DNA of 64,000 bases from Rhodobacteraceae bacterium IMCC1909. GTDB lineage: Bacteria; Pseudomonadota; Alphaproteobacteria; Rhodobacterales; Rhodobacteraceae. The stretch is from contig JAPDHM010000001.1 of the NCBI GenBank assembly GCA_030704425.1, forward strand, positions 372,001 through 436,000. The letters run 5' to 3'. Each line of letters opens with the position of its first letter. The first letter of the stretch is position 1. The translations under genes and the position numbers were made by a program. Below are positions 20,968-48,398 of this stretch, piece by piece. A model generated the notes under the pieces. That model was not told where the DNA came from. It searched no databases and saw nothing but the letters and a program-made list of their open reading frames with translations.

Positions 20968-22338
20968 TCAACCTCTCGAGGCGCTCCCAGCGATGCGGCC
21001 AAGAACCGCTGCGGCAAGCAGGCCATTCCCTGACAAATATCCACGATCACCGCTGCCCGAGACACCACAGGCTGCGCCGCCACCGGCGTATAAATTCGAG
21101 ATCACCCCGCCATTTTTTCGGATCACCCGTGCGAATGCGTCCACCTGCAGCCCGCCCTGCGTGTGAAAAAGTGCGCCCGTGACGCGCACCCCGCAAAAGG
21201 GGGGGCTGAGTAGCGTTTCACCAAAGGTTCGGCCAAAACGGTCAGTGTAGTTTGGCGAGATATCTGCAATCGTTTTGCTTAGGGTGTCAGCAGGTAGACC
21301 AAGTGCTTGGGCCAGCCCTTCGAGAGTGCCTGAACTCTTGATAGCCCCCTCAGATTTGGCGCGTTTAAAGTCCTCAAATTGCTCTGCGATTTCTGCGATG
21401 CGCTCGTCAAAAATAGCATAGGCTACACCGTGTGCTTGCGATAGCACTGCCCGCGCTGCTTCGGAGTAGCCTTGAGCCTCATTCCAAAACCGCTCGCCCG
21501 CAGCGTTTACTTGCACACCGCCCTCTGTGATGGTTGCCCATGTGATGAGAATACCATGCGGATGGGCGACATTTCCGTGCCCCTGAAAAGCCCCGAGATG
21601 TTCAGTTGCCGCGCCTATCTGAGTGGCCCAAAGCACAGCTTCGCCTCGGTTGCCGTCGTGGCCGAACCAAAGCCCATTTTCAATTTCAGGCATATGCTCC
21701 GACACCAGCGCGCGATTGCCGCCAAAGCCGTTGCAGGCGAGGATCAGCCGGTCGCAGCCAATCGTCTCAATGCCGCCATCAGGGCGCAGGGTAGCTACGC
21801 CATGAACCAAGCCATCAGCGAAATAAAGCGTTTCTGCACGACGCCCACAAATAATGTCGATACCCGCCCGTTCGGCTGCGCTTCGCAGAGCATCAATCAA
21901 CTCACTGCCCGCTCGGGTCGGCAAGCCATGCATTCGGCGGCTTGAATGGCCAGGGTAATCAAAATCGTCGACCAGCGAAAACGCAAGATCATGCGTTTGT
22001 GTCAACCAGTCGATCACCTCAGCTGCATTTTGCGCCAAAAGATCGACCAGCGCTTGGTTGTTTTCTTGATGGGCCTTCGCTTGAATATCGGCTGCAAACA
22101 GGGCGGTGCTATCCATTATTCCTGCTGCCTGTTGAATTTTTGTCCCCGCGGCGGGGATCAATCCAGCAGAGAGCGCCGTCGATCCAGACGGAACTGCATC
22201 CGCTTCTATCACCAGAACTTCTTGTCCCGCCTCCATTGCTGACAGGGCGGCGATCAGGCCGCAGGCACCAGCTCCGACGATCAGAGTTTCGACCGTAAAG
22301 TCGAATTTCTGGGGGGGCTCCTTAACCGTTGGAGCCAT
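20968..22338 (-). CDS. FAD-dependent oxidoreductase, fumarate-reductase/flavocytochrome c flavoprotein type
   Basis: 456 residues from the ATG at 22338, which overlaps the end of the upstream gene by 17 bases. N-terminal Rossmann motif LIVGAGACGLIAALSAMEAG (about 18-37) followed by Glu (VLVIEAD) binds FAD. The C-terminus has NLYAGGGAACGVSGSGDRGY and a closing LAAAVLGRIAG, the usual FAD_binding_2 ending. Relatives reduce or oxidise a C-C bond next to a carbonyl (fumarate and urocanate reductases, ketosteroid dehydrogenases). As last gene of the operon starting at 28118 it could reduce an activated double bond of the pathway substrate or an intermediate. Substrate not determinable from sequence. 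Confidence 0.85.
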   Translation of the reverse strand: MAPTVKEPPQKFDFTVETLIVGAGACGLIAALSAMEAGQEVLVIEADAVPSGSTALSAGLIPAAGTKIQQAAGIMDSTALFAADIQAKAHQENNQALVDLLAQNAAEVIDWLTQTHDLAFSLVDDFDYPGHSSRRMHGLPTRAGSELIDALRSAAERAGIDIICGRRAETLYFADGLVHGVATLRPDGGIETIGCDRLILACNGFGGNRALVSEHMPEIENGLWFGHDGNRGEAVLWATQIGAATEHLGAFQGHGNVAHPHGILITWATITEGGVQVNAAGERFWNEAQGYSEAARAVLSQAHGVAYAIFDERIAEIAEQFEDFKRAKSEGAIKSSGTLEGLAQALGLPADTLSKTIADISPNYTDRFGRTFGETLLSPPFCGVRVTGALFHTQGGLQVDAFARVIRKNGGVISNLYAGGGAACGVSGSGDRGYLSGNGLLAAAVLGRIAGSASRG

Positions 22339-23188
22339 AATAACGCGCACCTTTTTTGAGCATATCAGCCGTACCAATCATAGCGTTGAGGCCATCAAAA
22401 TCAAACATCCGCTCTCCAAATGGCTTGTTGGAGCCATGTTTGGCGAGGCTTTGGTAATAGTCTTGTGCCGTGCGTGCGATTGCGCGCACGATGCCACCAG
22501 GGAAAATTACAATTGAGAAACCAAGATCTTCCAGATCATCGGCGCTCGTGATGGGGGTTGCCCCCCCTTCAACCATATTCGCCAAAAGTGGGATGCGCTT
22601 AGAGAAGCGCGCTGCAATTTGTTCCAATTGAGCTCGGTCCTGTGGTGCTTCAATGAACAACACATCCGCGCCGGCTTCAAGATAGGCCTCAGCACGATCT
22701 TCGGCAGCGCCGAAGCCCTCCACGGCAATGGCGTCAGTTCGCGCAATGATCAGTGTTTCGTCAGAGCTTCGGGCGTCGGCCATGGCCGCAATTTTCCCAA
22801 CCATTTCCCCGGTGGAGATCAGCAACTTTTCGGACAGATGACCACAGCGTTTTGGGAAAGTTTGGTCTTCGATTTGCAGAGCAGATGCGCCTGCGCGCTC
22901 ATAAAGCCGCATTGTGCGTTGTGCGTTGAGCGCATTTCCAAAACCTGTATCTGCATCAATGATCACAGGTAAAGATGTGCGATCTGCAATCAGCGTCATT
23001 GTGTCCGCCATTTCAGAGGCAGTTGTCAGCCCAATATCAGGTCGCCCCAGGCGCGTATAGGCGACAGCAGCCCCGCTTAAGTAAAGCGCCTCAAAGCCTG
23101 CCGACTCTGCAAGCGAGGCTGTAAGCCCGTCATAAACGCCTGGCATAACGACGATTTTTTTATTCTGAAAACGAGTTTTAAGGCTCAT
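22322..23188 (-). CDS. Isocitrate lyase/PEP mutase family lyase
   Basis: 288 residues, a TIM-barrel enzyme of the PEP mutase/isocitrate lyase superfamily. It has the metal-binding DADTGFG loop (78-84), IEDQTFPKRCGH (about 106-117) with the catalytic-loop KRCGH (113-117), and IARTDA. KRCGH is the lyase version, found in methylisocitrate lyase, 2,3-dimethylmalate lyase and related 2-alkylmalate-cleaving enzymes; true PEP mutases differ here. It probably cleaves a C-C bond in a malate-like acid, giving pyruvate or oxaloacetate-type products. Start overlaps the previous gene (ATGA). Its partner in logic is the aconitase-like enzyme on the opposite arm (29060-31077). Confidence 0.88.
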   Translation of the reverse strand: MSLKTRFQNKKIVVMPGVYDGLTASLAESAGFEALYLSGAAVAYTRLGRPDIGLTTASEMADTMTLIADRTSLPVIIDADTGFGNALNAQRTMRLYERAGASALQIEDQTFPKRCGHLSEKLLISTGEMVGKIAAMADARSSDETLIIARTDAIAVEGFGAAEDRAEAYLEAGADVLFIEAPQDRAQLEQIAARFSKRIPLLANMVEGGATPITSADDLEDLGFSIVIFPGGIVRAIARTAQDYYQSLAKHGSNKPFGERMFDFDGLNAMIGTADMLKKGARYYGSNG

Positions 23189-23805
23189 GATCTTCCCTCG
23201 ATCAGGGCTAAGGCTTCCGCGCAGCTCATTTGTTTGGTGACAGTATCAAGCGACAGGAGTGTTGCGTCATGCACCTCGGTTTTGAAGGCGGCGCAGCCGT
23301 CTGTCAGCATGAGTGTTTCAATGTTGCGTAGGTGCGCGTCGCGTAGTGTTGAGGCCACGCCCCCATTGGTGACGATCCCGCCCACAATCAGATGATCAAT
23401 GCCTGTGGCCCGCATCAAATACTCGAGACGCGTTTGGAAAAACGCTGAATAAGCCACTTTTTCGATGACGAAATCCGCAGGGTGAAGCGCGTCGACAAGC
23501 CTGTGCCCGAAACTGCCTGGCGCAAAATCTCCTTTGTCAAGGAATGGGCGAAGCTCCTTGAGGTGCGCGGCGATCAGCGGCTCTCCGTCTTTGTCAGGGA
23601 CAAGCGTGAACTGCGCCGAGAAATAGCGCCCCCCTTTAGATCGCAAGGCGCGCGCCAAGGGAGCAATGCGACCTGGTAGGGCTGCGATCTTCGCAGAACT
23701 CTGGCCGGCGCGCCCGTAGGCTCCTTCGGGGTGGAGGAAGTCATTTTGCAAGTCGATGGTCAGCAAGGCTGTGCGCGACAGGTTCCAGGTACTCAGATCA
23801 CTCAT
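23185..23805 (-). CDS. Isochorismatase-fold hydrolase lacking the nucleophilic Cys
   Basis: 206 residues from an ATG with a perfect AGGAGG site. The cysteine-hydrolase family catalytic Asp (LLTIDLQNDF, Asp18) and Lys (FVIEKVAYSAF, Lys116) are present. The motif that normally reads TNxCVxST with the nucleophile reads TNGGVAST, so Gly149 replaces Cys. Amidases of this family (N-carbamoylsarcosine amidase, maleamate amidase, RutB) need that Cys; isochorismatases such as PhzD do not have it. It is placed between hyuA and a lyase gene, one base from the hyuA stop. A C-N hydrolase role would be expected from context but the missing Cys argues for a different hydrolysis. Confidence 0.88.
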   Translation of the reverse strand: MSDLSTWNLSRTALLTIDLQNDFLHPEGAYGRAGQSSAKIAALPGRIAPLARALRSKGGRYFSAQFTLVPDKDGEPLIAAHLKELRPFLDKGDFAPGSFGHRLVDALHPADFVIEKVAYSAFFQTRLEYLMRATGIDHLIVGGIVTNGGVASTLRDAHLRNIETLMLTDGCAAFKTEVHDATLLSLDTVTKQMSCAEALALIEGRS

Positions 23806-23806
23806 T

Positions 23807-25864
23807 TCATTCCTCCTGAGGTTCAATAATGGTATTGCCAAACCGATCTACGCGGCCTTGCAGTTGGGGCTCGATCAAGACAGTTGTGTCAGGTTGGGTC
23901 AAAATGGCGGGGCCAACTATTTTGGTTCCTGAGGGCAAGGCAAGGCGATCATATATGGCCGTGTCATACCATTTGTCGCCAAAGTGCACTCTGCGCACCC
24001 CGACTTTTTCCGCCCGTTCGCCTTCGGGCGGTGCAAGGGTGGTCAGGTCAAACTTGGGGCGTTTGCCTGTAACCGCGCTGCGCAGGTTCAAAATGCGCCG
24101 CACGCCGTTTTGCAATAATCTGCCATAGGTTGCTTTATATGTGGCATCAAAGGCAGTCTCGATTTCAGCACGCGTGACGGCTGTCACAGTGCTTCTGTCT
24201 GTTTTGATAGTGAGCGGAACCGAAACAGTATGAGTTTGTCCGACATAGGCCATATCAAGCTCAAAGCTTAGCTCGCGGGCTTCGAAATTTGTTCTTGCGG
24301 CATCAAGCAACGCCAGGCCTTGATCTACATGCGCGTGCATGAAGGCAGCCAATGCCGCCTCATCCAGCATATCAACGCGCGAATTTATGGTCTGCACAAA
24401 ATCTTGCCTCATATCGGCAATAACGCAGCCCATAGCGGAGGTCACGCCCGGGTAGCGTGGGACAATCGCCCGCGCGATACCAACTTCGGCCAGCATCGCG
24501 CCAGCGTGCAATGCACCGCCGCCGCCAAAAGGCATAAAGGCAAAATTTTTCGGGTCAAATCCTCGTTCGATGCTCACGAGCCGAATAGCGCCAGCCATAC
24601 GGCTGTTTGCAACTTTCAAGATGGCTTCGGCGGCCTCCACTGTTGTGAGACCCAATTGCTTGCCAACATGCTCGTCAATTGCGCGGCCCGCGGCGTCTAT
24701 ATCCAGGCGCTCAAGTTCCCCACCAATTGGGCTGTCAGGGTCAATCCGTCCCAAGAAGACATTGGCGTCTGTCACCGTCGGTCTTGTATTGCCAAGGCCA
24801 TAGGCCACTGGTCCCGGGTTGCTCCCTGCGCTTTGTGGGCCGATATTGAGCAGGCCGCCCTTGTCCACCCAAGCGATAGATCCGCCGCCCGCGCCGATTG
24901 TGGTTATCTCGATCATCGGGTTGCGCACGACCATTCCAAAATCAATGGAGGTCTGAGGCGAGAGCATCGAGCGCCCCGCTGAAACCAACGACACGTCAAA
25001 ACTTGTGCCCCCCATATCGCCGGTGATTACATTTTCAAAGCCTGCCGATTGTGCAATGTAGGCTGCGGCTATGACCCCCGCAGCCGGCCCGGACAGGGCT
25101 GTGCGTACTGGCAGACGGCAGGCCGTATCAACCGCCATTACGCCGCCATTGGATTGAACGATCATGAACTCGCCCTCAAAGCAATCGGCCTTAAGCGCGT
25201 TTTCCAAGCGGGCAAAGTAACCTGAAACCTCTGGCTGTAGATAGGCATTCAGCGCCGTCGTTGAAAAGCGTTCAAATTCGCGTATTTCAGGTAGTATTTC
25301 GGATGAAGCGGAGACATGCTGATTGTGCCAAATATCGCGGAGCAAAGCGACTGCTGCCTCTTCATTTGCCGTATTGGCATAGGAATTGGCAAATAGGATT
25401 GCCACGCTTTCACAGCCATTGGCTTGCAATGCCTGCGCGGCGCTGCGTACCGCCTCAAGATCAACGGGGGTGCGCACAGTGCCATCTGCCAGCGTGCGCT
25501 CAGGCACTTCAAGGCGGTTTCTGCGGTCAACCACAGGCTCGAAATTCCCGCGAAGGCCCCAGGTGCGAGGGCGATCTCGGCGGCGCATTTCTAGCACATC
25601 GCGCAGTCCTTGCGTGCAGATGACGCCGGTCTTGGCGCCCTTGCGCTCCAAGAGCGCATTGGTGCCTGCGGTTGTTCCATGAACAACAACAGAAATTTTC
25701 GAAAAATCGCTGACCTCTTGTTTAATCCCATCTAGGAAGCCCGCCGATTGGTCAGGGCGCGTGGTGGGTACTTTTGCAACCCGGGCTGTGCCGGCTGTTT
25801 CGTTGAGAACAAAAATATCCGTAAATGTGCCGCCAACATCGACACCGATCATGAGGCTGCTCAT
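23807..25864 (-). CDS. hyuA: HyuA-type subunit of ATP-dependent hydantoinase/oxoprolinase family
   Basis: 685 residues from the ATG at 25864, which overlaps the hyuB stop (ATGA) and has GGGAGGG upstream. The N-terminus MIGVDVGGTFTDIFVL is the actin-like ATP-binding motif of HyuA/oxoprolinase. Further motifs are VVHGTTAGTNALLERKGAK, GDMGGTSFDVSLV and TTIGAGGGSIAWVD. With HyuB it uses ATP to open a cyclic amide or imide (hydantoin, oxoproline, caprolactam), though relatives also carboxylate ketones (acetone and acetophenone carboxylases). The substrate cannot be read from sequence; the neighbours suggest a ring that yields a dicarboxylic acid. Confidence 0.92.
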   Translation of the reverse strand: MSSLMIGVDVGGTFTDIFVLNETAGTARVAKVPTTRPDQSAGFLDGIKQEVSDFSKISVVVHGTTAGTNALLERKGAKTGVICTQGLRDVLEMRRRDRPRTWGLRGNFEPVVDRRNRLEVPERTLADGTVRTPVDLEAVRSAAQALQANGCESVAILFANSYANTANEEAAVALLRDIWHNQHVSASSEILPEIREFERFSTTALNAYLQPEVSGYFARLENALKADCFEGEFMIVQSNGGVMAVDTACRLPVRTALSGPAAGVIAAAYIAQSAGFENVITGDMGGTSFDVSLVSAGRSMLSPQTSIDFGMVVRNPMIEITTIGAGGGSIAWVDKGGLLNIGPQSAGSNPGPVAYGLGNTRPTVTDANVFLGRIDPDSPIGGELERLDIDAAGRAIDEHVGKQLGLTTVEAAEAILKVANSRMAGAIRLVSIERGFDPKNFAFMPFGGGGALHAGAMLAEVGIARAIVPRYPGVTSAMGCVIADMRQDFVQTINSRVDMLDEAALAAFMHAHVDQGLALLDAARTNFEARELSFELDMAYVGQTHTVSVPLTIKTDRSTVTAVTRAEIETAFDATYKATYGRLLQNGVRRILNLRSAVTGKRPKFDLTTLAPPEGERAEKVGVRRVHFGDKWYDTAIYDRLALPSGTKIVGPAILTQPDTTVLIEPQLQGRVDRFGNTIIEPQEE

Positions 25865-27555
25865 AGGGTGCCCTCCCGCCACTTTGTTCCGTAGACGGCG
25901 TCAGCCTCGACGTCGCTCATTAATCCGTGCGCCACATCGCGGGCGATTGCCTCATGGCTGCGTTCATCGGCCTTGCCGTAGCCTCCACCTCCCGGTGTTT
26001 GTAGGCGTACAGCTTGCCCAGCTTTTAGAGTAATTCCACGCATCTTTGAGGTCAGCGGGGGGCTGTGCCATCCGTCATCTTGTTCGTATTGAAAAACATT
26101 GAGCGCAGCATCGCCACCGCCTGCGATTCCCTTGGGTGCGAAGCAACCACGCTCTCCGAAGAGGAAGGCTTCTGCGCCATTTTCTTCTAGAACTTCAATT
26201 TCATAGATCGCGCCTAAGCCGCCGCGATGCGCCCCAGCTCCTGCGCTATCGGGACGCAGAGCCCATGTTCGGAACATCACAGGATAGGCCGCTTCTAAAA
26301 TTTCCATTGGCGGAATTGTTGCGGTTGAAATTGGCGCGTTGCCATGGTTGAGGCCGTCTGTCTCGATAGAGCCGCCGTGACCGCCTCCGTAGAAGGAAAA
26401 CATGACCCATGGCTGGCCGTTTTTGCGCTTGCCTGCAATGGAAAGCGCATTGATTGTTCCGTATGCATTTGCAACCACTCGCTCCGGGGCAGCCTGCGCA
26501 AAGGCAGAAAATACAACGTCAATCATACGCAGGATGGTTTCCGTATATCCGCCCGTTGGCGCGGGGAACTTCGCGGCTAGAAGGCTGTCTTCGGGCACGA
26601 CGACCTCAATAGGGCGCATGACCCCAGCATTCGCAGGTAGCGCGGGAAAGATATGTTTGATTGCCACATAGGCTGTTGCCACGGCTGTCGGCAGGGCAAT
26701 GTTTACCGGACCGGCGCATTGAGGAGCTGAACCTGTGAAATCAAGAAGCATGGTGTCATCCTTGATTTCAAGAGCGATTTTGATCTTAAGCGGCGCATCA
26801 TTGATCCCGTCGTTATCCAGGTAATCTTCTGCTTCCCAGCGACCATCTGGCAGCTCCGTCAACTCTGAGCGCATGAGCGCCTCAGCGCGGTGGCCCAAAG
26901 CCTCAAGTGCGGCTGTGATCGTCACACCACCATATTCATCTAGCAGCTCATCCATCCGCGTCACACCAAGATCGAGCGCGCCCAACTGACCGTTGAGATC
27001 GCCCATGGCTGATTGTGGCAGGCGGGTGTTTCGCATCAAAATGTCGATGATGTCTTGGTTCACCTTGCCTGCACGCGCAAGTTTTACTGGTGGCAAGTTA
27101 AAGGCTTCTTGGAAAACATCGGTGGCGGCCGGGTTGTAATTGCCGGGAACAGCGCCGCCCACATCGTGCCAATGGCCGACCGAGGCGAGATAGCAAAACA
27201 GCTTACCAGCGTGATAATATGGACGCACCAAACGCATATCTGACAGATGTGTGCCGCCAATATGGGCATCATTGAATATGTAAATGTCACCATCTTGCAA
27301 ATCGCCGTCTTCGGCAGCTTTCTCGATCACCGCTTTGACCGCAAAAGACATCACACCAACGAATATTGGCAATCCCGATTTGCCTTGCACCAAAGTGTCG
27401 CCAGAGACCGCATGATAAACTCCGTGGCTGGCATCATGCGCCTCGGCGATGATGGGATTAAAGGCCGCACGAAAGAGGGTTGCGTCCATTTCATCTGCAA
27501 TTTGTTCCATCCTGCCCGCAAGCACCGATAGGGTTATTGGATCAATTTCACTCAT
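25861..27555 (-). CDS. hyuB: HyuB-type subunit of ATP-dependent hydantoinase/oxoprolinase family
   Basis: 564 residues from the ATG at 27555, overlapping the preceding stop. The start MSEIDPITLSVLAGRMEQIA and the blocks FNDAHIGGTHLSDMRLVRP, GHWHDVGGAVPGNYNP and the final LQTPGGGGYGKADER are diagnostic of HyuB/HydB. The His and Asp residues in the HIGGTH and HWHD motifs are the likely metal ligands. It forms the hydrolase with HyuA. Length is normal. Confidence 0.93.
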   Translation of the reverse strand: MSEIDPITLSVLAGRMEQIADEMDATLFRAAFNPIIAEAHDASHGVYHAVSGDTLVQGKSGLPIFVGVMSFAVKAVIEKAAEDGDLQDGDIYIFNDAHIGGTHLSDMRLVRPYYHAGKLFCYLASVGHWHDVGGAVPGNYNPAATDVFQEAFNLPPVKLARAGKVNQDIIDILMRNTRLPQSAMGDLNGQLGALDLGVTRMDELLDEYGGVTITAALEALGHRAEALMRSELTELPDGRWEAEDYLDNDGINDAPLKIKIALEIKDDTMLLDFTGSAPQCAGPVNIALPTAVATAYVAIKHIFPALPANAGVMRPIEVVVPEDSLLAAKFPAPTGGYTETILRMIDVVFSAFAQAAPERVVANAYGTINALSIAGKRKNGQPWVMFSFYGGGHGGSIETDGLNHGNAPISTATIPPMEILEAAYPVMFRTWALRPDSAGAGAHRGGLGAIYEIEVLEENGAEAFLFGERGCFAPKGIAGGGDAALNVFQYEQDDGWHSPPLTSKMRGITLKAGQAVRLQTPGGGGYGKADERSHEAIARDVAHGLMSDVEADAVYGTKWREGTL

Positions 27556-28118
27556 GTATTTGCCCTCACTTCGGCCATATCGTTCCAAACATCCTGCTTG
27601 GTAATCTTTCCATCAACGACTTCGAAGCGGTCAATAAAGCGGATACCTTCAAACCAGCTGCCATCGTGGTATTCGCCTTGCAGCGTGCCGCGGCAATATA
27701 CGATGGAGGCATCGTCTGGGCTCTGAAGTGCATCAAAACCTTCATATGTTTTCGTGACAAATTTGTAGCGTGGCTTCGACCATTGTATCAGCGCGTCAAG
27801 CGTCTTCATTGGCCCGGTGCCGGGGAAAGACATTGTAAAGTCCCGAGCCAACAGTGAGCTTGCCTTTGTCATATCACGCGCTTCCATCGCTGAGAGATAA
27901 TCTTTGATGATGAGCTCTGGGTCCAGCCTTGCCGCTGCCGGTCTGCGCTGGATACGACCGCGATAGTAATTTTCGGTTGGCATGTCATGGATCATGATCG
28001 TGACAAGCTCTGGGGTGGCTGGGACCACGAATCGCACAGCATCTGTCAAAGCCTGGCCAAGACGTTGTTTTTCTGATGAATTATAGCCTTCTAATACGTG
28101 CAATTCGACCACAGGCAT
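27552..28118 (-). CDS. 4-oxalocrotonate-tautomerase domain fused to a SnoaL-like domain
   Basis: 188 residues. Residues 1 to about 62 are a 4-OT-family tautomerase: MPVVELHVLEGYNSSEKQRL with the catalytic Pro2 exposed after Met removal. Residues from about 66 on form a SnoaL/NTF2-like domain (LIIKDYLSAMEARDMTKASS to GKITKQDVWND). Both parts are usually separate proteins; the fusion suggests keto-enol isomerisation and a second step on the same substrate, or SnoaL serving as a binding pocket. It is the first gene of the minus-strand operon, divergent from gntR. The intact frame and ATGA coupling to hyuB show it is functional. Confidence 0.85.
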   Translation of the reverse strand: MPVVELHVLEGYNSSEKQRLGQALTDAVRFVVPATPELVTIMIHDMPTENYYRGRIQRRPAAARLDPELIIKDYLSAMEARDMTKASSLLARDFTMSFPGTGPMKTLDALIQWSKPRYKFVTKTYEGFDALQSPDDASIVYCRGTLQGEYHDGSWFEGIRFIDRFEVVDGKITKQDVWNDMAEVRANT

Positions 28119-28152
28119 CGCCGTCTCCCTCGCATAAACTGTACTATCTGTA

Positions 28153-28167
28153 ATACATATATTGTAT
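28153..28167. promoter_or_regulatory. Candidate GntR operator in the divergent promoter region
   Basis: A perfect inverted repeat ATACA-TATAT-TGTAT lies 34 bases upstream of the tautomerase-fusion start, within the 144-base AT-rich region shared with gntR. HutC-type GntR proteins bind short AT-rich palindromes beside their own genes. Assignment is inferred from position and symmetry. Confidence 0.5.
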
Positions 28168-28262
28168 CTTTCCAGAATTTTTTTTCAGATCTTCTGAATA
28201 CTAATACTTGCTTTTGTAAGAAACATATTTACGCTCAACTGGGTACGGTTGAGGAATCATGA

Positions 28263-29063
28263 ATGCGGGCTGAGTCTGTTCAGATATTGCCAAAGGGGAC
28301 CAAGGCGCTCCGTGTTTACCTTTCAGTGCGCGATCAGATTACGGTCGGTGATTTGCGAGATGGTGAAACGCTGCCCAGCGAGCAGAAACTCGCCGAGGCT
28401 TTTGGTGTCAGTCGAGTCACTGTCCGTCGTGGGCTGGACGCATTGGCGCAGGGAGGCTTTATAGAGCGCCGGGCTGGAAGCGGAACGAAGGTTCGCGCCC
28501 GCCCAGCGGTGGCCCAGCGCGCTGCCATGAATTTCAACACACTCATGCCGCAACTGGTCGAGATGGGCCAAAAGACGACCGCGCGGCTGTTATCATTTAC
28601 CTACGGTGGCGCGCCCGATTTCGTTTCCCTCGCGCTGGGGTTTAAGCGAGATATTGAAGTTCAGATTGCGACGCGGGTTCGGCTTGCGGGCACTGTTCCA
28701 TTTTCTCATTTGACGACTTATGTGCCGGCTCAGATTGCGCAAAACTATTCCGAGAATGACCTGGCCACAACGCCGCTCTTTCAGCTTTTGGAGCGAAGTG
28801 GCGTGCAGATAAAGGAGGCGCATCAATCCGTAAGCGCAACTTTGGCCGGTCCTGAAGTGGCCAAGGCTCTTGATGTTGAAGTTGGCTCCGCATTGCTCTC
28901 ATTGCGGCGGGTTGTGCGGGATGTGCATGGAGACGGTGTCGAGTACCTAGCAGGGCTCTACAGACCGGATATGTTCCGGCTCGAAATGCCGCTCATGCGT
29001 GTTGGGCATGGCTCCGCGCGCCATTGGGAACCTGCCATTGGCAAGGATGAGGGCGGCATATGA
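28263..29063 (+). CDS. GntR-family (HutC type) transcriptional regulator
   Basis: 266 residues. N-terminal winged helix: LPSEQKLAEAFGVSRVTVRR (about 37-56). C-terminal UTRA effector domain, from about residue 95 to 245, with the usual ALLSLRRVVRDVHGDGVEYL segment. GAGGAATC is the ribosome-binding site. It is divergent from the tautomerase/hyuBA operon and is the first gene of the aconitase/TRAP operon, whose next gene starts inside its stop codon (ATGA). It therefore very likely controls both arms. The ligand would be the substrate or an intermediate. Confidence 0.9.
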   Translation: MRAESVQILPKGTKALRVYLSVRDQITVGDLRDGETLPSEQKLAEAFGVSRVTVRRGLDALAQGGFIERRAGSGTKVRARPAVAQRAAMNFNTLMPQLVEMGQKTTARLLSFTYGGAPDFVSLALGFKRDIEVQIATRVRLAGTVPFSHLTTYVPAQIAQNYSENDLATTPLFQLLERSGVQIKEAHQSVSATLAGPEVAKALDVEVGSALLSLRRVVRDVHGDGVEYLAGLYRPDMFRLEMPLMRVGHGSARHWEPAIGKDEGGI

Positions 29064-30466
29064 AGCCGATTTCTCAAACCATGTTGGACAAGCTCTGGAC
29101 TGCGCATGAAGTGTTGCGGCGTGAGGACGGTGTTTCGCTGCTTTGGATTGACCGCCATCTGGTTCATGAGGGGTCGCATCATGCTTTTGCCAAACTCAAA
29201 GAGCGGGGACTATCTGTTTGCGAGCCAGATCTGACGTTTGCTTTCGTTGACCATTATGCGCCGACGCGACGCAGTTTTCAGACCTGTGACCCGCAGATAT
29301 TAGGCATGATCCAGACACTGCGCCAGAACACCCATGATCATGGGGTCCGCCTCTATGATCTGGATGATCCAAGGCAGGGCATCGCCCATGTGGTAGGGCC
29401 AGAAGAGGGCTTAACGCTGCCCGGTTTGCTCATCAATTGCGGCGATAGCCATACGTCAACCCACGGTGCCTTTGGTGCGCTGGCCTTTGGTATTGGCGCG
29501 ACAGAAGTGGCCCATGTGCTGGCCACGCAAACCATATGGCAGCGCAAACCAAAATCCATGCGCATAAGCGTCGAAGGCGCCTTGGGTTTCGGCGTCGCGG
29601 CTAAGGATATAGCCCTTGGCTGGATTGGGAAGCTCGGAACTGATGGGGCGCAAGGCTATGCCGTGGAATACGCAGGCGCCGTCATCAGAGGTCTGTCCAT
29701 GGAAGGCCGGATGACGCTGTGCAACATGTCGATTGAGGGCGGCGCACGATTTGGGATCATAGCGCCAGACGAGACAACCTTCGCTTATATCAAAGACCGT
29801 CCCTTTGCCCCGAAAGCTGAGGCATGGAAACAAGTCTGTGCGGACTGGCGCGCGCTTTCCAGCGATAAAGATGCTCAGTTTGACCGTGAGGTGGTGTTGG
29901 ATGCCTCTGAGATCGCGCCGACAGTGACTTGGGGCACCAGTCCAGAGCAAGCGCTGCCGATAACGGCCGCAGTGCCGGTGGCGGATGATGTGACGCCCGC
30001 CAAACGGGAGGCTGTCTGTGATGCGCTCGAGTATATGGGGCTCAAGGCTGGTCATAAGCTTGAGGGCACGGCAGTAGATCAAGTCTTTATCGGCTCTTGC
30101 ACCAATGGGCGAATAGAGGACTTGCGCGAAGCGGCGCATGTGCTCAAGGGCCGTAAGGCAAAGATACCTGGTCAGGTCTCTCCCGGTTCTGCCAAGGTCA
30201 AAGCTCAGGCTGAAGCGGAGGGGCTTGACCAGATATTCAGGTCAGCTGGCCTGGATTGGGTCGACTCTGGTTGCTCAATGTGTGTTGGGATGAATGGTGA
30301 TCTTGTTGAGAAAGGCCAGCGCTGCGCATCCTCAACCAACCGCAATTTCAAGGGGCGCCAAGGGCGCGGCGCGCGCACACATCTCATGAGCCCGGCGATG
30401 GTTGCTGCGGCTTCAGTAACGGGCATGCTAACGGATGTGCGCCGGCTTCTTGAGGGGCGCCAGTGA
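29060..30466 (+). CDS. Aconitase-family hydro-lyase, large subunit (LeuC-like)
   Basis: 468 residues, the length of isopropylmalate isomerase LeuC. It has VDHYAPT, the CGDSHTSTHGAFGALAFGIG block, and Cys residues for a [4Fe-4S] cluster in CGDSH, IGSCTNGR and SGCSMCVGMN. The family dehydrates or hydrates malate/maleate-type acids: isopropylmalate, citraconate, 2,3-dimethylmaleate. The catabolic setting (GntR, TRAP transporter, HyuAB, lyase) argues against leucine synthesis. I infer hydration of a maleate derivative to feed the lyase at 22322-23188. Confidence 0.9.
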   Translation: MKPISQTMLDKLWTAHEVLRREDGVSLLWIDRHLVHEGSHHAFAKLKERGLSVCEPDLTFAFVDHYAPTRRSFQTCDPQILGMIQTLRQNTHDHGVRLYDLDDPRQGIAHVVGPEEGLTLPGLLINCGDSHTSTHGAFGALAFGIGATEVAHVLATQTIWQRKPKSMRISVEGALGFGVAAKDIALGWIGKLGTDGAQGYAVEYAGAVIRGLSMEGRMTLCNMSIEGGARFGIIAPDETTFAYIKDRPFAPKAEAWKQVCADWRALSSDKDAQFDREVVLDASEIAPTVTWGTSPEQALPITAAVPVADDVTPAKREAVCDALEYMGLKAGHKLEGTAVDQVFIGSCTNGRIEDLREAAHVLKGRKAKIPGQVSPGSAKVKAQAEAEGLDQIFRSAGLDWVDSGCSMCVGMNGDLVEKGQRCASSTNRNFKGRQGRGARTHLMSPAMVAAASVTGMLTDVRRLLEGRQ

Positions 30467-31077
30467 TGGCTGGCTGGAGCACACATATAGGCATGGCCGT
30501 GTGTCTGCCACAGGCGAATATCGATACCGACCAACTGATCCCTGCGCGCTTTATGTCAGTGCCACGGGCGCAAGGTTACGGGCGCTTTCTTTTGCATGAC
30601 ATGCGCCGCGAGGAGGCGGGTGATTTGAAGGCTGATTTCCCGTTCAATGCCCAGGAAGGCATGAGCGTGTTGATCGCGGGCCGTAATTTTGGCAGCGGAT
30701 CCTCGCGGGAGGCAGCGGTCTATGCGCTGGTTGATTCAGGCATCCGTGCCGTGTTTGCGCCAAGTTTTGGGGATATTTTTGCGTCAAATGCCGTGAACAA
30801 TGGGTTGCTACCGGCTCAGATTGACGAAGCTACTTACGAGACACTTTCGCAGACCTTAGAGCGGAGGCCACAAACCATCACGATAGATCTTGGCGCCCGC
30901 AGTCTTCAGCTCGGGTCTGTTGGGGCGCGTTTCTCAATCGATGACAGTTGGGCGCTGAAATTGATCAATGGCTGGGACGACATTGATCTTACGCGCCATC
31001 ACAGGGCGGCCATCGCTGCATTCAAAAATACTCGATATCAAACCACCGCTTGGGCCTGGCCCAACGGCGCGGATTGA
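30466..31077 (+). CDS. Aconitase-family hydro-lyase, small subunit (LeuD-like)
   Basis: 203 residues, starting at the ATG that overlaps the last base of the large-subunit stop (a GTG three bases upstream is possible). It has the swivelling-domain signature NFGSGSSREAAVYALVDSGI and the N-terminal NIDTDQLIPARFM. It forms the active hydro-lyase with the preceding gene. It contains the loop that fixes substrate side-chain specificity, but I cannot assign the substrate from it. Confidence 0.9.
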   Translation: MAGWSTHIGMAVCLPQANIDTDQLIPARFMSVPRAQGYGRFLLHDMRREEAGDLKADFPFNAQEGMSVLIAGRNFGSGSSREAAVYALVDSGIRAVFAPSFGDIFASNAVNNGLLPAQIDEATYETLSQTLERRPQTITIDLGARSLQLGSVGARFSIDDSWALKLINGWDDIDLTRHHRAAIAAFKNTRYQTTAWAWPNGAD

Positions 31078-31137
31078 AAAAGCCGCCATTTGCGCGGGCA
31101 ATGGGGGTGCAAGCCTCAAAACAGGGAGAAAGAAACG

Positions 31138-32151
31138 ATGAAGATGAAACTACTGGGGAGCCTCCTAGCCGGGGCCACACTCGTTGCGGGCACGCTTAAA
31201 GCTGAAGAGACAATATCGGCCGTGCACGCATTTCCTGAAACTCTAATTTACACAAAGAGCTTTTTGAGCTTTGTCGATAAGGTCAATGCAAAAGGCGCGG
31301 GCGTGATCCAGATTGACGTTCGCGGTGGGCCTGAAGCGATTGGCATGTTCCAGCAGCCTGACGCTGTGCGCGATGGTATCGTCGATATGGTCTATACGCC
31401 CGGCTCGTTTTACGGAGGGGCTCTTCCAGAGAAAGACGCTATGGTGTCCTCAAATCTGACAGCGGTTGAAACGCGTAAAAATGGTGGCACTGCGTTTATC
31501 GACCAGATCCATCAAGAAAAAATGGGCCTTAAGTACCTCGGTTGGTTCGACAGTGGTGTTTGCTACAATCTGTGGACGCGTGAGGAACCCACCTTCGATG
31601 CGGCGGGCAATCTCGAAGTCAATGGTTTGAAGCTACGTGGGAATAATGTTTATAATGCATTCTTCACTAACTATCTCGGCGCGCAGGTCATTGATTTGCC
31701 AACAGGTGAAGTCTACTCTGCGCTTCAGCGGGGCGTTGTCGATGCGACAGGTTGGACCCAGATTGGCCTGATTGATCTTAAGTGGAACGAGTTTTTGAAC
31801 TACCGCATCGAACCTTGCTTCTTTTCGACAGATCTCGGTGTGATTGTGAACAACGAAAAGTGGAACTCGCTTTCTGATGAGGCCAAGAAAATCCTTCAAG
31901 ATGTGGCAATTCAGCACGAGCAAGACAGTGTTAAAGCCTTGCGCGCCAAGCGGGATGACGACTTTGCCGCGCTTGATGCTGCGGGCATGAAAGTCGTGTC
32001 GCTCGAAGGCACAGCAAAAGCCAATTACCTTGCCGCGGCACGGGAAAAAACATTGGAGCGTATGAAGGAAGTTATGTCCGGACAGCCCGGCGGCACAGGC
32101 AATTATGATCGCTTGGTTGAGCTGTTTTACGATCTCGATGCAGCAAAATAA
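31138..32151 (+). CDS. dctP: TRAP transporter periplasmic substrate-binding protein, DctP type
   Basis: 337 residues from the ATG at 31138 behind GGGAGA; a longer in-frame start at 31090 is rejected. A signal peptide ends near LKA. The family core LKLRGNNVYNAFFTNYLGAQ contains the conserved Arg that binds the carboxylate of the ligand, followed by LPTGEVYSALQRGVVDATG. This indicates an organic acid or similar anionic ligand. It is placed with DctQ and DctM in the GntR operon, so it probably delivers the pathway substrate. Confidence 0.92.
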   Translation: MKMKLLGSLLAGATLVAGTLKAEETISAVHAFPETLIYTKSFLSFVDKVNAKGAGVIQIDVRGGPEAIGMFQQPDAVRDGIVDMVYTPGSFYGGALPEKDAMVSSNLTAVETRKNGGTAFIDQIHQEKMGLKYLGWFDSGVCYNLWTREEPTFDAAGNLEVNGLKLRGNNVYNAFFTNYLGAQVIDLPTGEVYSALQRGVVDATGWTQIGLIDLKWNEFLNYRIEPCFFSTDLGVIVNNEKWNSLSDEAKKILQDVAIQHEQDSVKALRAKRDDDFAALDAAGMKVVSLEGTAKANYLAAAREKTLERMKEVMSGQPGGTGNYDRLVELFYDLDAAK

Positions 32152-32159
32152 GCCCTTTC

Positions 32160-32187
32160 GCAGGTCCACCCTTTCGGGTGGACCTGC
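32160..32187 (+). terminator. Strong hairpin between dctP and dctQ
   Basis: A perfect 12-bp stem (GCAGGTCCACCC with GGGTGGACCTGC) with loop TTTC stands in the 57-base gap. No T-run follows, so it is more likely a partial terminator or mRNA 3'-end stabiliser that lifts binding-protein levels over the membrane subunits than a full stop. Confidence 0.7.
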
Positions 32188-32208
32188 GTTGTTCATGAAA
32201 GACGATCT

Positions 32209-32709
32209 ATGATCAATACCACATATAGAATACTGCTATACGTGATGGCCGGGATTTCGGGTCTCACATTGGTCTGGATTATGGTGTCTGTGATCGCTTC
32301 GGTGTTGATGCGCAATTTTGGGCTTCAGCCTTTTGCTTGGCTTTTTACTTCAGCAGAATATGGTCTTCTATACATGACGATGTTGGGTGCACCCTGGCTG
32401 GTCCGTGAGAAAGGGCATGTTCATATCGAATTGCTCACATCCGCCTTGTCAGAGGGGCCGCGCCAATTCCTGAGCCGCGCTGTTGCGCTCGCCTGCGTTG
32501 TGGTCTGTGCAATTCTCGCATGGAAAGGAATAGAGCTGGTGTTGACCAATCTGGAACGCGGCGACTTTGATACCCGCGCCTATTACTATCCGCGCTGGCT
32601 GCTCAGCATTACTTTTCCGCTCTCATTTGGCCTAATGGCCGTCGAATTTTCCCGTTTCGTCTTTGGCTCCAAGCTGATGCATAGCGGTGAAGCTGGGATA
32701 CATGAATAA
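32209..32709 (+). CDS. dctQ: TRAP transporter small membrane subunit, DctQ type
   Basis: 166 residues with four membrane segments, as in DctQ. Typical features are VLMRNFGLQPFAW at the start of the second segment and the MTMLGAPWLVREKGHVHIEL stretch. It is downstream of dctP and overlaps dctM by one base (TAATG). Confidence 0.9.
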   Translation: MINTTYRILLYVMAGISGLTLVWIMVSVIASVLMRNFGLQPFAWLFTSAEYGLLYMTMLGAPWLVREKGHVHIELLTSALSEGPRQFLSRAVALACVVVCAILAWKGIELVLTNLERGDFDTRAYYYPRWLLSITFPLSFGLMAVEFSRFVFGSKLMHSGEAGIHE

Positions 32710-34016
32710 TGGAATGGTTTGAGGCGCTCGCCCTGCTGCTCGGCACAATTATGCTTCTCATGGCAGTTGGCATGCCCATAGCTCTAGCCTTTTTGGCAGC
32801 CAATATCATCGGTGCATGGGTGTTCATGGGTGGAGAGCGTGGCATCACCCAACTTTTAAACAACGGGCTTGGCTCGCTTACAAAATACGCGCTGATGCCG
32901 ATCCCATTGTTTTTACTTATGGGGGAAATATTCTTCCATACGGGACTTGGTGGCCGTATGTTCACTGCAATTGACAAATTGCTAGGTCGCCTTCCGGGGC
33001 GCTTAAGTTATGTAACAGTTTTGGGCGGTACTGCTTTTTCAACCTTGTCGGGCTCGTCCATGGGGTCAACCGCGCTTTTAGGGTCGCTAATGGTTCCAGA
33101 GATGAGCCGTCGTGGCTATAAATCCCATATGAGTATTGGCCCGATCCTGGGAACAGGAGGTCTGGCGATTATTATTCCGCCATCGGCTTTGGCTGTTCTT
33201 CTCGCAACGCTGGCGCAGATTGATGTGGCGGCTCTGCTGCTTGCGGGTGTGATACCGGGTCTCGTTCTTGCTGGTTTTTATATCGCCACCATTTGGGTTC
33301 AGACTCAGATCGACCCAACGGCCGCGCCAGCCTATGAGGTTGAACGGCTGTCTTTTGCCAAAAAGATTGGCCTGCTCCTGCGGGAGGTCATCCCAATGGT
33401 GAGTGTGATGATCATTATCATTGTGCTGATGATCCAGGGTTTTGTGACCCCTTCGGAAGCCGCTGCCTTTGGCGCTTTGGGTGTACTTATTCTTGCAGCA
33501 GTGTTTCATTGTCTCACTTGGGAGGCTATGAAAAAGTCTGTCATCGGGGCTTTGAGGGTAACAATCATGGCTTATTTGATTGTCTTCGGGTCGGCAACAT
33601 TCAGTCAGCTGCTCGCTTTCTCGGGTGCGTCGCGTGGGCTGGTCAGCTGGGCGACCAGTTTTGATTTGGCGCCCCTGGCCATGCTGATGGTGATGTTTGC
33701 TGTGCTATTGCTGCTGGGCATGTTCATGGAGCAGATCTCAATTATGCTGCTGACTGTGCCGATCTTTTTCCCTCTGGCCCAAACACTCGGTTTTGATCTG
33801 ATTTGGTTTGCGCTGATCATGCTGCTCTCCTTGGAGATTAGCTTTACAACCCCACCATTCGGGCTGTTATTGTTCGTGATGAAGGGGGTATCTCCGCCAG
33901 AAACGACGATGCGAGAGATATACACCTCAGCTTTCCCCTACATATTTTGCTCGCTATTACTAGTGATATTGCTGATTGTCTTTCCACAAATAGCGCTGTG
34001 GTTGCCGGCATTGTGA
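32709..34016 (+). CDS. dctM: TRAP transporter large membrane subunit, DctM type
   Basis: 435 residues, about twelve membrane segments. DctM hallmarks include MPIPLFLLMGEIFFHTGLGG, GGTAFSTLSGSSMGSTALLG and the GPILGTGGLAIIIPPSALAV stretch. It couples sodium gradient to import with DctPQ. Last gene of the GntR-led plus-strand operon. Confidence 0.93.
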   Translation: MEWFEALALLLGTIMLLMAVGMPIALAFLAANIIGAWVFMGGERGITQLLNNGLGSLTKYALMPIPLFLLMGEIFFHTGLGGRMFTAIDKLLGRLPGRLSYVTVLGGTAFSTLSGSSMGSTALLGSLMVPEMSRRGYKSHMSIGPILGTGGLAIIIPPSALAVLLATLAQIDVAALLLAGVIPGLVLAGFYIATIWVQTQIDPTAAPAYEVERLSFAKKIGLLLREVIPMVSVMIIIIVLMIQGFVTPSEAAAFGALGVLILAAVFHCLTWEAMKKSVIGALRVTIMAYLIVFGSATFSQLLAFSGASRGLVSWATSFDLAPLAMLMVMFAVLLLLGMFMEQISIMLLTVPIFFPLAQTLGFDLIWFALIMLLSLEISFTTPPFGLLLFVMKGVSPPETTMREIYTSAFPYIFCSLLLVILLIVFPQIALWLPAL

Positions 34017-34261
34017 ATGGGCAGCAAAGCCGAAAGCACACCATTGCTGGGACGGTTGAAACGGCACCATTTTCTGAGTTAATATATTGATTATGAATAA
34101 TTTTTAATAAATATAGCCATATTCTATTTTGAGGCATATGTTTTTGTTTGCATTGGTCGAAAATGTCGAGAGTTTCAGTTTCTCCACCGCCAAAATTTTA
34201 CCGTTTGATAAAAAAATAATCTGTGCAATAGTGATTCTGTAATTTGATCTACGGAGGATCT

Positions 34262-35599
34262 ATGACCAGTCCTATGACGCCAGGCATTGCAGCGGATCGC
34301 CTAAGCAACGAAGCGCTTGCACAAAACTTTGCAGACCTACATGTGCCGCTCGAACCGCATGAAGTGCGGGTTGCGGCTGATCGCTGTTACTTTTGCTATG
34401 ATGCACCCTGTGTGACCGCCTGCCCGACGGATATCGATATTCCGCTATTCATCCGTCAAATTAGTACGGACAGGTCAGAGGCTGCGGCCAAAACGATTCT
34501 TGATATGAATATTTTGGGCGGAATGTGTGCCCGTGTTTGCCCAACGGAAGTGCTCTGCGAACAGGCCTGCGTGCGTGAAGTTTCAGAGGGCAAGCCTGTT
34601 GAAATTGGCCGCCTTCAACGCCACGCCACTGATAGTTTGATGGCAAAAAACATTCATCCCTTTAGTCGTGCAGCCTCCACCGGAAAGAAGGTTGCAGTGG
34701 TTGGGGCGGGACCTGCGGGGCTATCCTGCGCCCACCGATTGGCATTAAAGGGGATCGATGTGACGATCTATGATACCCGTTCTAAAGCAGGCGGCCTGAA
34801 TGAATACGGGATCGCCGCCTATAAATCCACAAATGACTTTGCCGCGAAGGAAGTGGCGTGGTTGCTGTCTATCGGTGGTATCACGATTGAAAACAACAAA
34901 ACGCTGGGCATGGACATGACGCTGGACGGCCTCAGCTCTGATTTCGATGCGGTTTTTCTGAGTGTTGGTTTGGGCGGCGTTAACGCCCTGAGCATGTCGA
35001 ATGAAGATGATATATGTATGTCAGACGCAGTTGGGTTCATTGAAACATTGAGACAAACGACTGACCTGGCCAGCATACCCATTGGGCGCAACGTGGTTGT
35101 TATCGGTGGCGGAATGACAGCGGTTGATGCTGCTGTGCAGTCGAAACTGCTTGGTGCCGAGCAGGTCACTATTGCCTACCGACGGGGCCGCGAAGCGATG
35201 AGTGCGAGCCGCTATGAACAAGACCTCGCAGCGTCACATGGCGTGAAGCTTTTGTTCAATGTCCAACCGGTTACACTTGAGGCTTTGGGAACAAGCGCGG
35301 CGCTTGTCCTGGAATATACGGCGACAAAAGATGGTCGGTTGACAGGTACAGGGGAGACCATGCGTATTTCTGCGGATCAAGTATTTTCTGCCATCGGTCA
35401 AACACTTACCACTGATGGTGGACTGGCACTTGATGGGCGCAAGATTTCTGTGACAGGTGCAGGTCGCACGAGCCGCGATCGGGTTTGGGCAGGTGGCGAT
35501 TGCGCCTCCGGTGGTGATGATCTGACTGTAACTGCGGTCGCTGAAGGGCGTGACGCAGCAATGGATATTTATGCAACCGTAATGGGAGGGGCAAACTAA
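34262..35599 (+). CDS. preT: Dihydropyrimidine dehydrogenase, FAD/NAD subunit PreT
   Basis: 445 residues from ATG 34262 with GGAGG upstream; a TTG at 34244 is rejected. The N-terminal Cys-rich domain (CYFCYDAPCVTACPTDIDIP and MCARVCPTEVLCEQACV) carries Fe-S clusters. Then come the FAD motif KVAVVGAGPAGLSCAHRLAL and the NAD(P) motif VVVIGGGMTAVDAAVQ. It passes electrons from NAD(P)H to PreA to reduce uracil and thymine. It overlaps preA by one base. The gap upstream (34017-34261) is AT-rich and may hold its promoter. Confidence 0.93.
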   Translation: MTSPMTPGIAADRLSNEALAQNFADLHVPLEPHEVRVAADRCYFCYDAPCVTACPTDIDIPLFIRQISTDRSEAAAKTILDMNILGGMCARVCPTEVLCEQACVREVSEGKPVEIGRLQRHATDSLMAKNIHPFSRAASTGKKVAVVGAGPAGLSCAHRLALKGIDVTIYDTRSKAGGLNEYGIAAYKSTNDFAAKEVAWLLSIGGITIENNKTLGMDMTLDGLSSDFDAVFLSVGLGGVNALSMSNEDDICMSDAVGFIETLRQTTDLASIPIGRNVVVIGGGMTAVDAAVQSKLLGAEQVTIAYRRGREAMSASRYEQDLAASHGVKLLFNVQPVTLEALGTSAALVLEYTATKDGRLTGTGETMRISADQVFSAIGQTLTTDGGLALDGRKISVTGAGRTSRDRVWAGGDCASGGDDLTVTAVAEGRDAAMDIYATVMGGAN

Positions 35600-36903: not shown

Positions 36904-36918
36904 AGGATGATCAAATCG

Positions 36919-36940
36919 GCGTGTGGGTAAACCCACGCGC
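36919..36940. terminator. Hairpin between convergent preA and rutR
   Basis: A 9-bp stem (GCGTGTGGG with CCCACGCGC, one G-T pair) and loop TAAA lie in the 41-base gap between the two converging stops. No long T-run is present, so it is a moderate bidirectional terminator candidate. Confidence 0.5.
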
Positions 36941-36944
36941 TGTA

Positions 36945-37547: not shown

Positions 37548-37636
37548 ACGGGTCTATCACATGGAACAGTTGAGGGAGTAAATGACTAATTCGAAGGCAG
37601 TTGGGCAATGGATTGGCAAATTATAAAAGCAATTCC

Positions 37637-37664
37637 TTGACACATGTCTGGCCTCTGCTAGCGT
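37637..37664 (+). promoter_or_regulatory. Promoter of the hydrolase/dihydropyrimidinase/ABC operon
   Basis: TTGACA at 37637-37642 and TAGCGT at 37659-37664 with a 16-base spacer resemble a housekeeping promoter. The RutR site follows directly and would cover the transcription start, which fits repression. Confidence 0.5.
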
Positions 37665-37667
37665 CAG

Positions 37668-37685: not shown

Positions 37686-37731
37686 TTATTAATTGAGCAA
37701 CCGTAAAAATTCGAAAGTGAAGGACCGTCTC

Positions 37732-48395: not shown

Positions 48396-48398
48396 ACG

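Follow-up and report, generated by a model that had tools for sequence, protein, structure and literature searches.

A GntR-controlled gene cassette of Rhodobacteraceae bacterium IMCC1909 and its relatives, probably for the uptake and breakdown of hematinic acid

Several described routes share activities with the gene cluster analyzed here, which lies at positions 20968-34016 of a 64,000-nucleotide stretch of DNA from Rhodobacteraceae bacterium IMCC1909 (positions 372001-436000 of contig 1 of a 3.27-Mb genome; the whole stretch is called the window). The cyclic imide transforming pathway of Blastobacter consists of an imidase and a half-amidase. The methylcitrate cycle ends in hydration by PrpD/AcnD and cleavage by PrpB, giving pyruvate and a straight dicarboxylate, while nicotinate fermentation uses 2,3-dimethylmaleate hydratase and dimethylmalate lyase. 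The N-methylhydantoin (creatinine) pathway combines HyuAB with an isochorismatase-fold partner. Hematinic acid is 2-methyl-3-(2-carboxyethyl)maleimide, and it and its dihydro form are the ring fragments of heme, bilins, and chlorophyll that carry an acid group. The gene content of the cluster and of its relatives suggests a GntR-controlled cassette for the uptake and breakdown of hematinic acid, and probably also of its dihydro (succinimide) form; we put the probability of this reading at about 60%.

All 12 genes were confirmed as open frames in two divergent arms around a GntR/UTRA gene, as had been described in a sequence-only reading of this DNA. The leftward arm codes for a flavoprotein binding flavin adenine dinucleotide (FAD), a lyase, an isochorismatase-fold protein, HyuA, HyuB, and a tautomerase-SnoaL fusion, and the rightward arm for the regulator, LeuC, LeuD, and DctPQM, a tripartite ATP-independent periplasmic (TRAP) transporter. 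With gene starts refined from relatives and from ATGA overlaps, the features are:

20968-22338, minus strand: FAD_binding_2 flavoprotein with fumarate/urocanate reductase fold and altered active site, putative dehydrogenase
22322-23188, minus strand: methylisocitrate-lyase-type C-C lyase, KRCGH at residues 113-117
23185-23805, minus strand: isochorismatase-fold protein without the amidase cysteine (TNGGV)
23807-25864, minus strand: HyuA, ATP-binding subunit of a hydantoinase/oxoprolinase-type ring hydrolase
25861-27555, minus strand: HyuB subunit
27552-28118, minus strand: 4-oxalocrotonate-tautomerase domain (Pro after Met) fused to a SnoaL/NTF2-like domain, homologue of the solved structures 9mua/9mup
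28140-28157, no strand: operator-like imperfect palindrome TGTACTATCTGTAATACA, candidate GntR site
28263-29063, plus strand: GntR/UTRA regulator, best NCBIfam match HutC, below the HutC cut-off
29060-30466, plus strand: LeuC-type (aconitase family) hydratase large subunit, the second LeuC of the genome
30463-31077, plus strand: LeuD-type small subunit, GTG start
31138-32151, plus strand: DctP substrate-binding protein, nearest solved structures 4mnc/4mni
32209-32709, plus strand: DctQ, TRAP small permease, named from the annotation of homologues
32709-34016, plus strand: DctM, TRAP large permease, named from the annotation of homologues

Most neighbors had been said to overlap by ATGA. Overlaps of 4 nucleotides do occur at 5 of the 11 junctions (lyase/isochorismatase fold, HyuA/HyuB, HyuB/tautomerase, GntR/LeuC, and LeuC/LeuD), but the other six differ, with one 1-nucleotide and one 17-nucleotide overlap, three gaps of 1 to 60 nucleotides, and the 144-nucleotide divergent gap.

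In the proposed pathway, DctPQM would import hematinic acid, and HyuAB would open the imide at the expense of ATP to a disubstituted maleamate. The maleamate would lose ammonia, spontaneously via its neighboring carboxylate and/or aided by the Cys-less isochorismatase-fold protein. LeuCD would then hydrate the resulting tricarboxylate, a one-carbon homologue of 2-methyl-cis-aconitate, and the methylisocitrate-lyase-type enzyme would cleave the product into pyruvate and glutarate, which GcdG/GcdH-type enzymes, encoded within the operon in some relatives and elsewhere in the window genome, would take to crotonyl-coenzyme A (CoA). As guesses, oxidation of the saturated form up to the maleimide might fall to the FAD enzyme, and the shift of a double bond or a proton to the tautomerase-SnoaL fusion. 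The mass balance is exact: C8H9NO4 + 3 H2O = NH3 + C3H4O3 (pyruvate) + C5H8O4 (glutarate). The order of ring opening, nitrogen loss, hydration, and C-C cleavage is kept from the sequence-only reading, with glutarate now as the predicted second product.

Since the tricarboxylate would be homologous to 2-methyl-cis-aconitate, PrpD- and PrpB-type proteins fit this scheme. As at the end of the methylcitrate cycle, a 2-methyl-aconitate-type acid would be hydrated and cleaved by such proteins, but the proposed substrate is one CH2 longer (leading to glutarate, not succinate) and the lyase scores below the PrpB cut-off. Nicotinate fermentation likewise has a LeuCD-type hydratase followed by a KRCGH lyase acting on a disubstituted maleate, whereas the cassette would have an imide as input and a glutarate-type product, and occurs in other bacteria. 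The N-methylhydantoin pathway shares HyuAB and the isochorismatase-fold partner; in the cassette, however, this partner is without the catalytic Cys, and hydratase, lyase, and FAD enzyme are added. Finally, the Blastobacter pathway and the Aspergillus nicotinate route with HxnM (the latter as given in passages of PMC9304392) lead in a similar manner from a cyclic imide through a half-amide and nitrogen release to a dicarboxylate, but the cassette has an ATP-type HyuAB opener, no Cys amidase, and an added hydratase and C-C lyase.

The cassette recurs as a unit. Scanning of genome contigs with an alignment of seven HyuB proteins gave 441 confirmed stretches, of which the best 80 (75-97% identity) were kept. 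ORF (open reading frame) calling misplaces ORFs in GC-rich loci, and the locus counts therefore rest on tblastn, with a match defined by E 1e-8 and 30% cover. Among the 80 HyuB loci, HyuA was found in 80, the tautomerase in 76, LeuC in 75, the isochorismatase-fold protein and the lyase in 73 each, LeuD in 71, GntR in 67, FAD in 66, and DctP, DctQ, and DctM in 62, 60, and 58, respectively; missing genes are partly due to contig ends. Not all of these loci are independent: L033 has the same DNA as L034, and L053 is L024 in reverse complement. Co-occurrence of the two arms elsewhere, on which the sequence-only reading had staked itself, was thus observed.

A cyclic substrate is indicated by the genes that accompany the lyase. 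Orthologues of the lyase occur in 15 of 398 phylum genomes (E 1e-90), 33 of 299 genomes of family f66 (E 1e-85), and 46 of 385 class genomes (E 1e-85); the three genome sets overlap, and the window's own genome is included in the phylum and class counts. The surroundings of every lyase place except that in G953 were examined, and together with loci of other searches 111 loci were typed, 107 of them with the lyase. Among these 107, the ring opener was HyuAB in 46, a PuuE-fold protein in 12, and of dihydropyrimidinase type in 10, and none was recognized in 39, a class that includes some contig ends and a locus with a cut HyuA (L246). No locus passed the thresholds for two opener classes; L277 has HyuAB plus a weaker PuuE-like match of 106 bits, below the 150-bit threshold. 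The 107 loci are not independent, as tautomerase-, HyuB-, or plasmid-led searches contributed 18 of them, a bias toward HyuAB; the 89 loci from lyase-only genome searches comprised 32 with HyuAB, 10 with a PuuE fold, 10 of dihydropyrimidinase type, and 37 with none. The three opener families have in common the hydrolysis of cyclic imides, amides, or ureides. Because three unrelated ring-hydrolase families fill one slot, a cyclic amide or imide as substrate, as first proposed from the sequence, is supported.

The openers themselves belong to broad families. HyuA and HyuB scored above the cut-offs of the Pfam families Hydant_A_N, Hydantoinase_A, and Hydantoinase_B, but as caprolactamase CapAB they reached only 501.2 and 305.7 bits against an NCBIfam equivalog cut-off of 1000 bits. 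Three PuuE-fold proteins were tested, and their best family, allantoinase PuuE, gave 117.8 to 142.1 bits against a cut-off of 424.6, so that they are not true allantoinase PuuE but share a related fold; plasmid annotation names two such proteins polysaccharide deacetylases. One dihydropyrimidinase-type protein matched the models for allantoinase, hydantoin-5-propionate amidohydrolase, and dihydropyrimidinase, all below cut-off. L158 and L159 keep the two-arm layout of the window, with two PuuE-fold proteins plus another isochorismatase-fold protein in place of HyuAB (a tautomerase match is absent from L158). According to parts of PMC9304392, Aspergillus HxnM, which hydrolyses a cyclic imide, shares 64% identity with an imidase homologue of Pseudomonas putida and has a structural relative leading to PuuE, a family that includes cyclic imidases.

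The hydratase slot is variable in the same way, occupied either by LeuCD, in one of two types, or by an MmgE/PrpD protein: PrpD without LeuCD stands beside HyuAB in 2 loci, and PrpD together with LeuCD occurs in four. The smallest complete set, in Paraburkholderia, consists of GntR, an ATP-binding cassette (ABC) transporter, LeuCD, HyuBA, the isochorismatase-fold protein, and the lyase. Two further clusters (L027 and L028, in G018 and G004) contain the tautomerase fusion, a PuuE-fold protein, two isochorismatase-fold proteins, and PrpD-like and FAD proteins with no lyase match, and may represent a related pathway that ends differently. Three others (L266, L269, and L285) carry a lyase orthologue, two CoA-transferase-like and an FAD-linked-oxidase-like gene (these names by eye), and a CaiB 38-40% identical to GcdG; no hydratase match was obtained in them at the threshold used.

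Lyases of this family convert X-CH(COOH)-C(OH)(R)-COOH into X-CH2-COOH and R-CO-COOH. The window lyase is closest to methylisocitrate lyase, with the KRCGH loop and a PrpB equivalog score of 297.8 bits against a cut-off of 354.4, and the 2,3-dimethylmalate-lyase-type structure 3fa3 is among its structural matches. KRCGH was found in 11 of 12 orthologues and KKCGH in one, and the positions of F178 and P230, which we take to form the pocket for the pyruvate methyl, are kept in all 12. Given this kinship and the kept Phe and Pro positions, R would most simply be CH3, and with glutarate as the second product X would be a carboxyethyl group. Hydration followed by C-C cleavage, and pyruvate as a likely product, are likewise supported. 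The window LeuC scored about 636 bits, above the LeuC equivalog cut-off of 560.25; another LeuC in the genome scored 788.6, so that the window LeuC is not the sole candidate for leucine synthesis and a biosynthetic (leucine) LeuCD is disfavored.

The second product is indicated by genes that join the cassette in some relatives. Hematinic acid and glutarate were predicted before the results of family searches with two neighbor genes were at hand and after the annotation of these genes as acyl-CoA dehydrogenase and CaiB. The first of these codes for a glutaryl-CoA dehydrogenase, with 619.9 bits to human GCDH, and at a second locus with about 735 bits to a solved bacterial GCDH; NCBIfam model NF045552 was not reached, and the assignment follows from this close homology. 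In an untargeted clustering of unassigned neighbors at 151 loci, the commonest were CaiB (14, not all of glutarate type), TctC-type (12), and GcdH (11). The gcdH gene lies directly downstream of the FAD gene in 10 of 60 observable loci, on the same strand, with 71-107 nucleotides between match ends and gcdG next. It was found in 11 of the 80 HyuB loci, where one copy per 4.5 Mb would give 0.33, and in 15 of 187 loci, against about 0.8 expected; 13 of these 15 have a gcdG-like gene. The 15 are not independent, since a group of six (Marivita or similar) are mutually close. In L248, gcdG stands alone, inside the operon. CaiB genes that are 38-40% identical and lie beside or near lyases in L223, L266, L269, and L285 were excluded from the glutarate gene counts.

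A tree of 36 GcdH proteins, 15 cassette-linked and 21 others, required at least 5 label changes, in which gains and losses are indistinguishable; these may be read as five recruitments, in Tistrella, Burkholderia, the L276/L286 pair, Yoonia, and a clade of ten. The Yoonia gcdH/gcdG pair lies about 1 kb past the TRAP genes, a looser linkage. In the window genome, a GcdH and a GcdG-like protein, 67% and 53% identical to the Tistrella ones, are encoded away from the window. Repeated recruitment thus supports glutarate as the probable product. Since glutaryl-CoA dehydrogenase and glutarate CoA-transferase-like partners recur, glutarate, and hence hematinic acid among the tetrapyrrole-derived imides, is pointed to; the simple alkylmaleimide yielding a short acid that had been suggested earlier is replaced by an imide with methyl and propionate side chains.

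Loss of nitrogen, a step of the sequence-only reading, finds no support as the work of the isochorismatase-fold protein acting as an ordinary amidase. Classical amidases of the isochorismatase superfamily (NicF, RutB, CSHase type) have an Asp-Lys-Cys triad. The nearest relatives of the window protein include RutB and biuret hydrolase, but the position of the nucleophilic Cys is Gly in the window protein and in 119 of 119 aligned copies (127 HyuAB loci, of which 7 have no copy and 1 did not align there), which rules out a classical Cys amidase. Conversely, at 14 PuuE-type loci the Cys is present in 11 of 11 aligned copies, and 3 loci have none; at 10 dihydropyrimidinase-type loci neither an isochorismatase-fold protein nor, in called ORFs, an amidase-signature pattern was found. 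Nitrogen release in HyuAB loci is therefore not a classical Cys-amidase step. Dimethylmaleic acid amides are readily hydrolysed at pH 6.8, as stated in part of PMC8000772. We infer that the carboxylate of the disubstituted maleamate itself drives the expulsion of ammonia, whether or not the protein assists. Such self-hydrolysis would be less easy for half-amides that are mono-substituted or saturated, which is a further hint of a disubstituted maleimide.

The model of the FAD protein is confident, with a mean predicted local distance difference test (pLDDT) score of 87.2, but a fold search returned only the superfamily level (urocanate and fumarate reductases), with PDB titles among the matches that include R402, R381, and E378 mutants. 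A fumarate reductase or flavocytochrome c is rejected by 247.2 bits against a subfamily cut-off of 285.45 and by Tyr at the position of the catalytic Arg. Tyr290, Trp266, and Tyr433 (first Met uncounted) are invariant in 11 and in 24 sequences. Mapped by eye on an alignment with flavocytochrome c3, they presumably occupy the positions of Arg402 (catalytic), Glu378, and Arg544 (carboxylate-binding). The substrate would then be less charged than a free dicarboxylate, for example an imide ring. In chlorophylls other than c, ring D is reduced (passages of PMC7318184). The fragment from such a ring would therefore be a dihydro imide and would need such a dehydrogenase; that the FAD enzyme is a dehydrogenase of a saturated (dihydro) substrate is a guess. 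Genes of the Asp/Glu/hydantoin-racemase family are present in some clusters and would fit a chiral saturated substrate. The tautomerase is near constant in close relatives (76 of the 80 HyuB loci), unlike in the wider lyase set, and the literature searched contained no publication on 9mua/9mup.

Several observations weigh against hematinic acid catabolism as proposed here. No ring opener was recognized in 37 of the 89 lyase-search loci, and 16 of these 37 have LeuCD. Although the best family of the CaiB proteins is succinate-glutarate CoA-transferase, the three proteins scored 533-542 bits against a cut-off of 750. Within the flanking DNA examined, gcdH was seen neither beside the cassette in the window nor in 172 of 187 loci. 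Genome-wide it is near universal, occurring in 44 of 44 cassette genomes (two of which, G535 and G977, have no recognized ring opener) and in 41 of 44 controls, hand-picked from listed genomes without the lyase, so that its presence in whole genomes agrees with the prediction and is uninformative. The FAD gene was found in 38 of 46 HyuAB, 5 of 12 PuuE-type, and 10 of 10 dihydropyrimidinase-type loci, and the tautomerase, for which there is no firm role, in only 16 of 46, 5 of 12, and 0 of 10, respectively. The isochorismatase-fold protein of HyuAB loci is without its nucleophile, the methyl group is deduced mainly from the kinship of the lyase, and no tetrapyrrole gene was recognized beside the cassette, where no search aimed at such genes was made.

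The alternative that survives best keeps the chemistry and changes the five-membered imide, either to a mono-substituted carboxyethylmaleimide, yielding glyoxylate and glutarate, or to a simple dialkylmaleimide such as methylethylmaleimide, yielding pyruvate and butyrate. It draws on the same gene evidence, and most loci have no adjoining gcdH or gcdG in the flanking DNA examined; a DUF4147/MOFRL gene, which we take to be glycerate-2-kinase-like in role, could moreover serve glyoxylate. However, the repeated recruitment of gcdH fits a propionate side chain, the lyase keeps the presumed methyl pocket, and the kinase-like gene adjoins only 3 of 80 loci, where it is convergent and outside the operon, and was discarded as a hint of glyoxylate. 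Another imide is therefore unlikely.

A hydantoin route of the N-methylhydantoin or hydantoin-5-propionate kind, in which HyuAB would form an N-carbamoyl amino acid, to be stripped of its carbamoyl group by the isochorismatase-fold protein, is improbable. The nearest solved HyuAB is an N-methylhydantoinase, and RutB and biuret hydrolase, the racemase-family genes, and the hydantoin-5-propionate amidohydrolase models matched by the dihydropyrimidinase-type protein would agree with such a route, but the Cys nucleophile of a carbamoyl amidase is replaced by Gly in all 119 aligned copies, and an amino acid product would leave the conserved hydratase and C-C lyase idle. Similarly improbable, finally, is a core of hydratase, lyase, and FAD enzyme acting on a plain di- or tricarboxylate, in which HyuAB and its partner would carboxylate or otherwise ligate the input: acetone and acetophenone carboxylases belong to the HyuAB superfamily and LeuCD occurs without a recognized ring opener in 16 of the 107 lyase loci, but a swap for PuuE-fold and dihydropyrimidinase-type hydrolases is hard to reconcile with carboxylation.

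The logic of a cyclic imide, hydration, and lyase cleavage is well supported by the genome evidence, and hematinic acid would be the simplest compound that fits all of it. In PMC7318184, hematinic acid is described as a chlorophyll product in leaves and lake sediments, with other maleimides undetected in the leaves of that study, and ChuS releases hematinic acid from heme according to passages of PMC11442138 and PMC8131568. No description of bacterial hematinic acid catabolism was found in the literature searched. A wider form of the proposal is tentative: the cassette may be a widespread pathway dedicated to the tetrapyrrole ring fragment that carries the propionate, in which versions without FAD would take hematinic acid (from heme and bilins), those with FAD would accept dihydrohematinic imide as well (from ring D of chlorophyll, which is reduced), and nitrogen would be released by self-hydrolysis of the maleamate. 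If true, this built-in self-hydrolysis would explain both the loss of Cys in the isochorismatase-fold protein and the unrecognized amidase in dihydropyrimidinase-type clusters.

The control region and the transporter vary among relatives. The palindrome in the window sits inside the 144-nucleotide divergent gap; its form in relatives is approximately CTGTATTA-N4-TAATACAG, and GTATT-N6-AATAC is exact in 33 of 64 of their divergent gaps. Another TRAP set or TRAP fragment (42-73% identity) was found in eight of the 80 HyuB loci. A different TRAP set lies near the cassette in L039, L059, L061, and L070, with octopine-dehydrogenase-like and 3-hydroxyacyl-CoA-dehydrogenase-like genes (names by eye). 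In the genus of the window, L030 and L031 (in G017 and G014) hold a divergent version with the other LeuCD type, L030 also with an ABC transporter. The cassette also occurs on plasmids: nine Sulfitobacter plasmids matched, and the three examined carry all 12 genes, one of them being typed conjugative. HyuB homologues (E 1e-100) were present in 48 plasmid records, which form two groups, of at least 59.6% and at most 42.1% identity with nothing between, and the former group has all or most of the cassette in the records examined.

Directly downstream of the cassette, at 34244-44129, lies an apparent reductive pyrimidine pathway (two PreT/PreA-like genes, TetR, a carbamoylase-like gene, and a dihydropyrimidinase-like amidohydrolase) with an ABC transporter; the amidohydrolase and the NMT1/THI5-like ABC binding protein were identified by search and the other names given by eye. 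A urease gene cluster at 47631-52515, recognized by eye from translations, makes the region look like a nitrogen-scavenging island. Two adjacent SnoaL-like ORFs were observed at 14866-15837 (minus strand), and a nucleoside 2-deoxyribosyltransferase-like gene at 18015-18452.

Chlorophyll is made and destroyed at a rate of some 10^12 kg a year, as given in part of PMC7318184. The bacterial fate of its small fragments, hematinic acid included, is undescribed in the literature searched, where no published description of this cluster was found either. If the reading is true, the turnover of pigment carbon and nitrogen would gain a missing link in the form of a portable cassette, present in marine Rhodobacterales, in Azospirillum of soils, and in Burkholderiales. 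The cassette would also supply metagenomics with a set of marker genes, offer HyuAB, LeuCD, and methylisocitrate-lyase-type enzymes of new specificity, and lead to a directly testable prediction.

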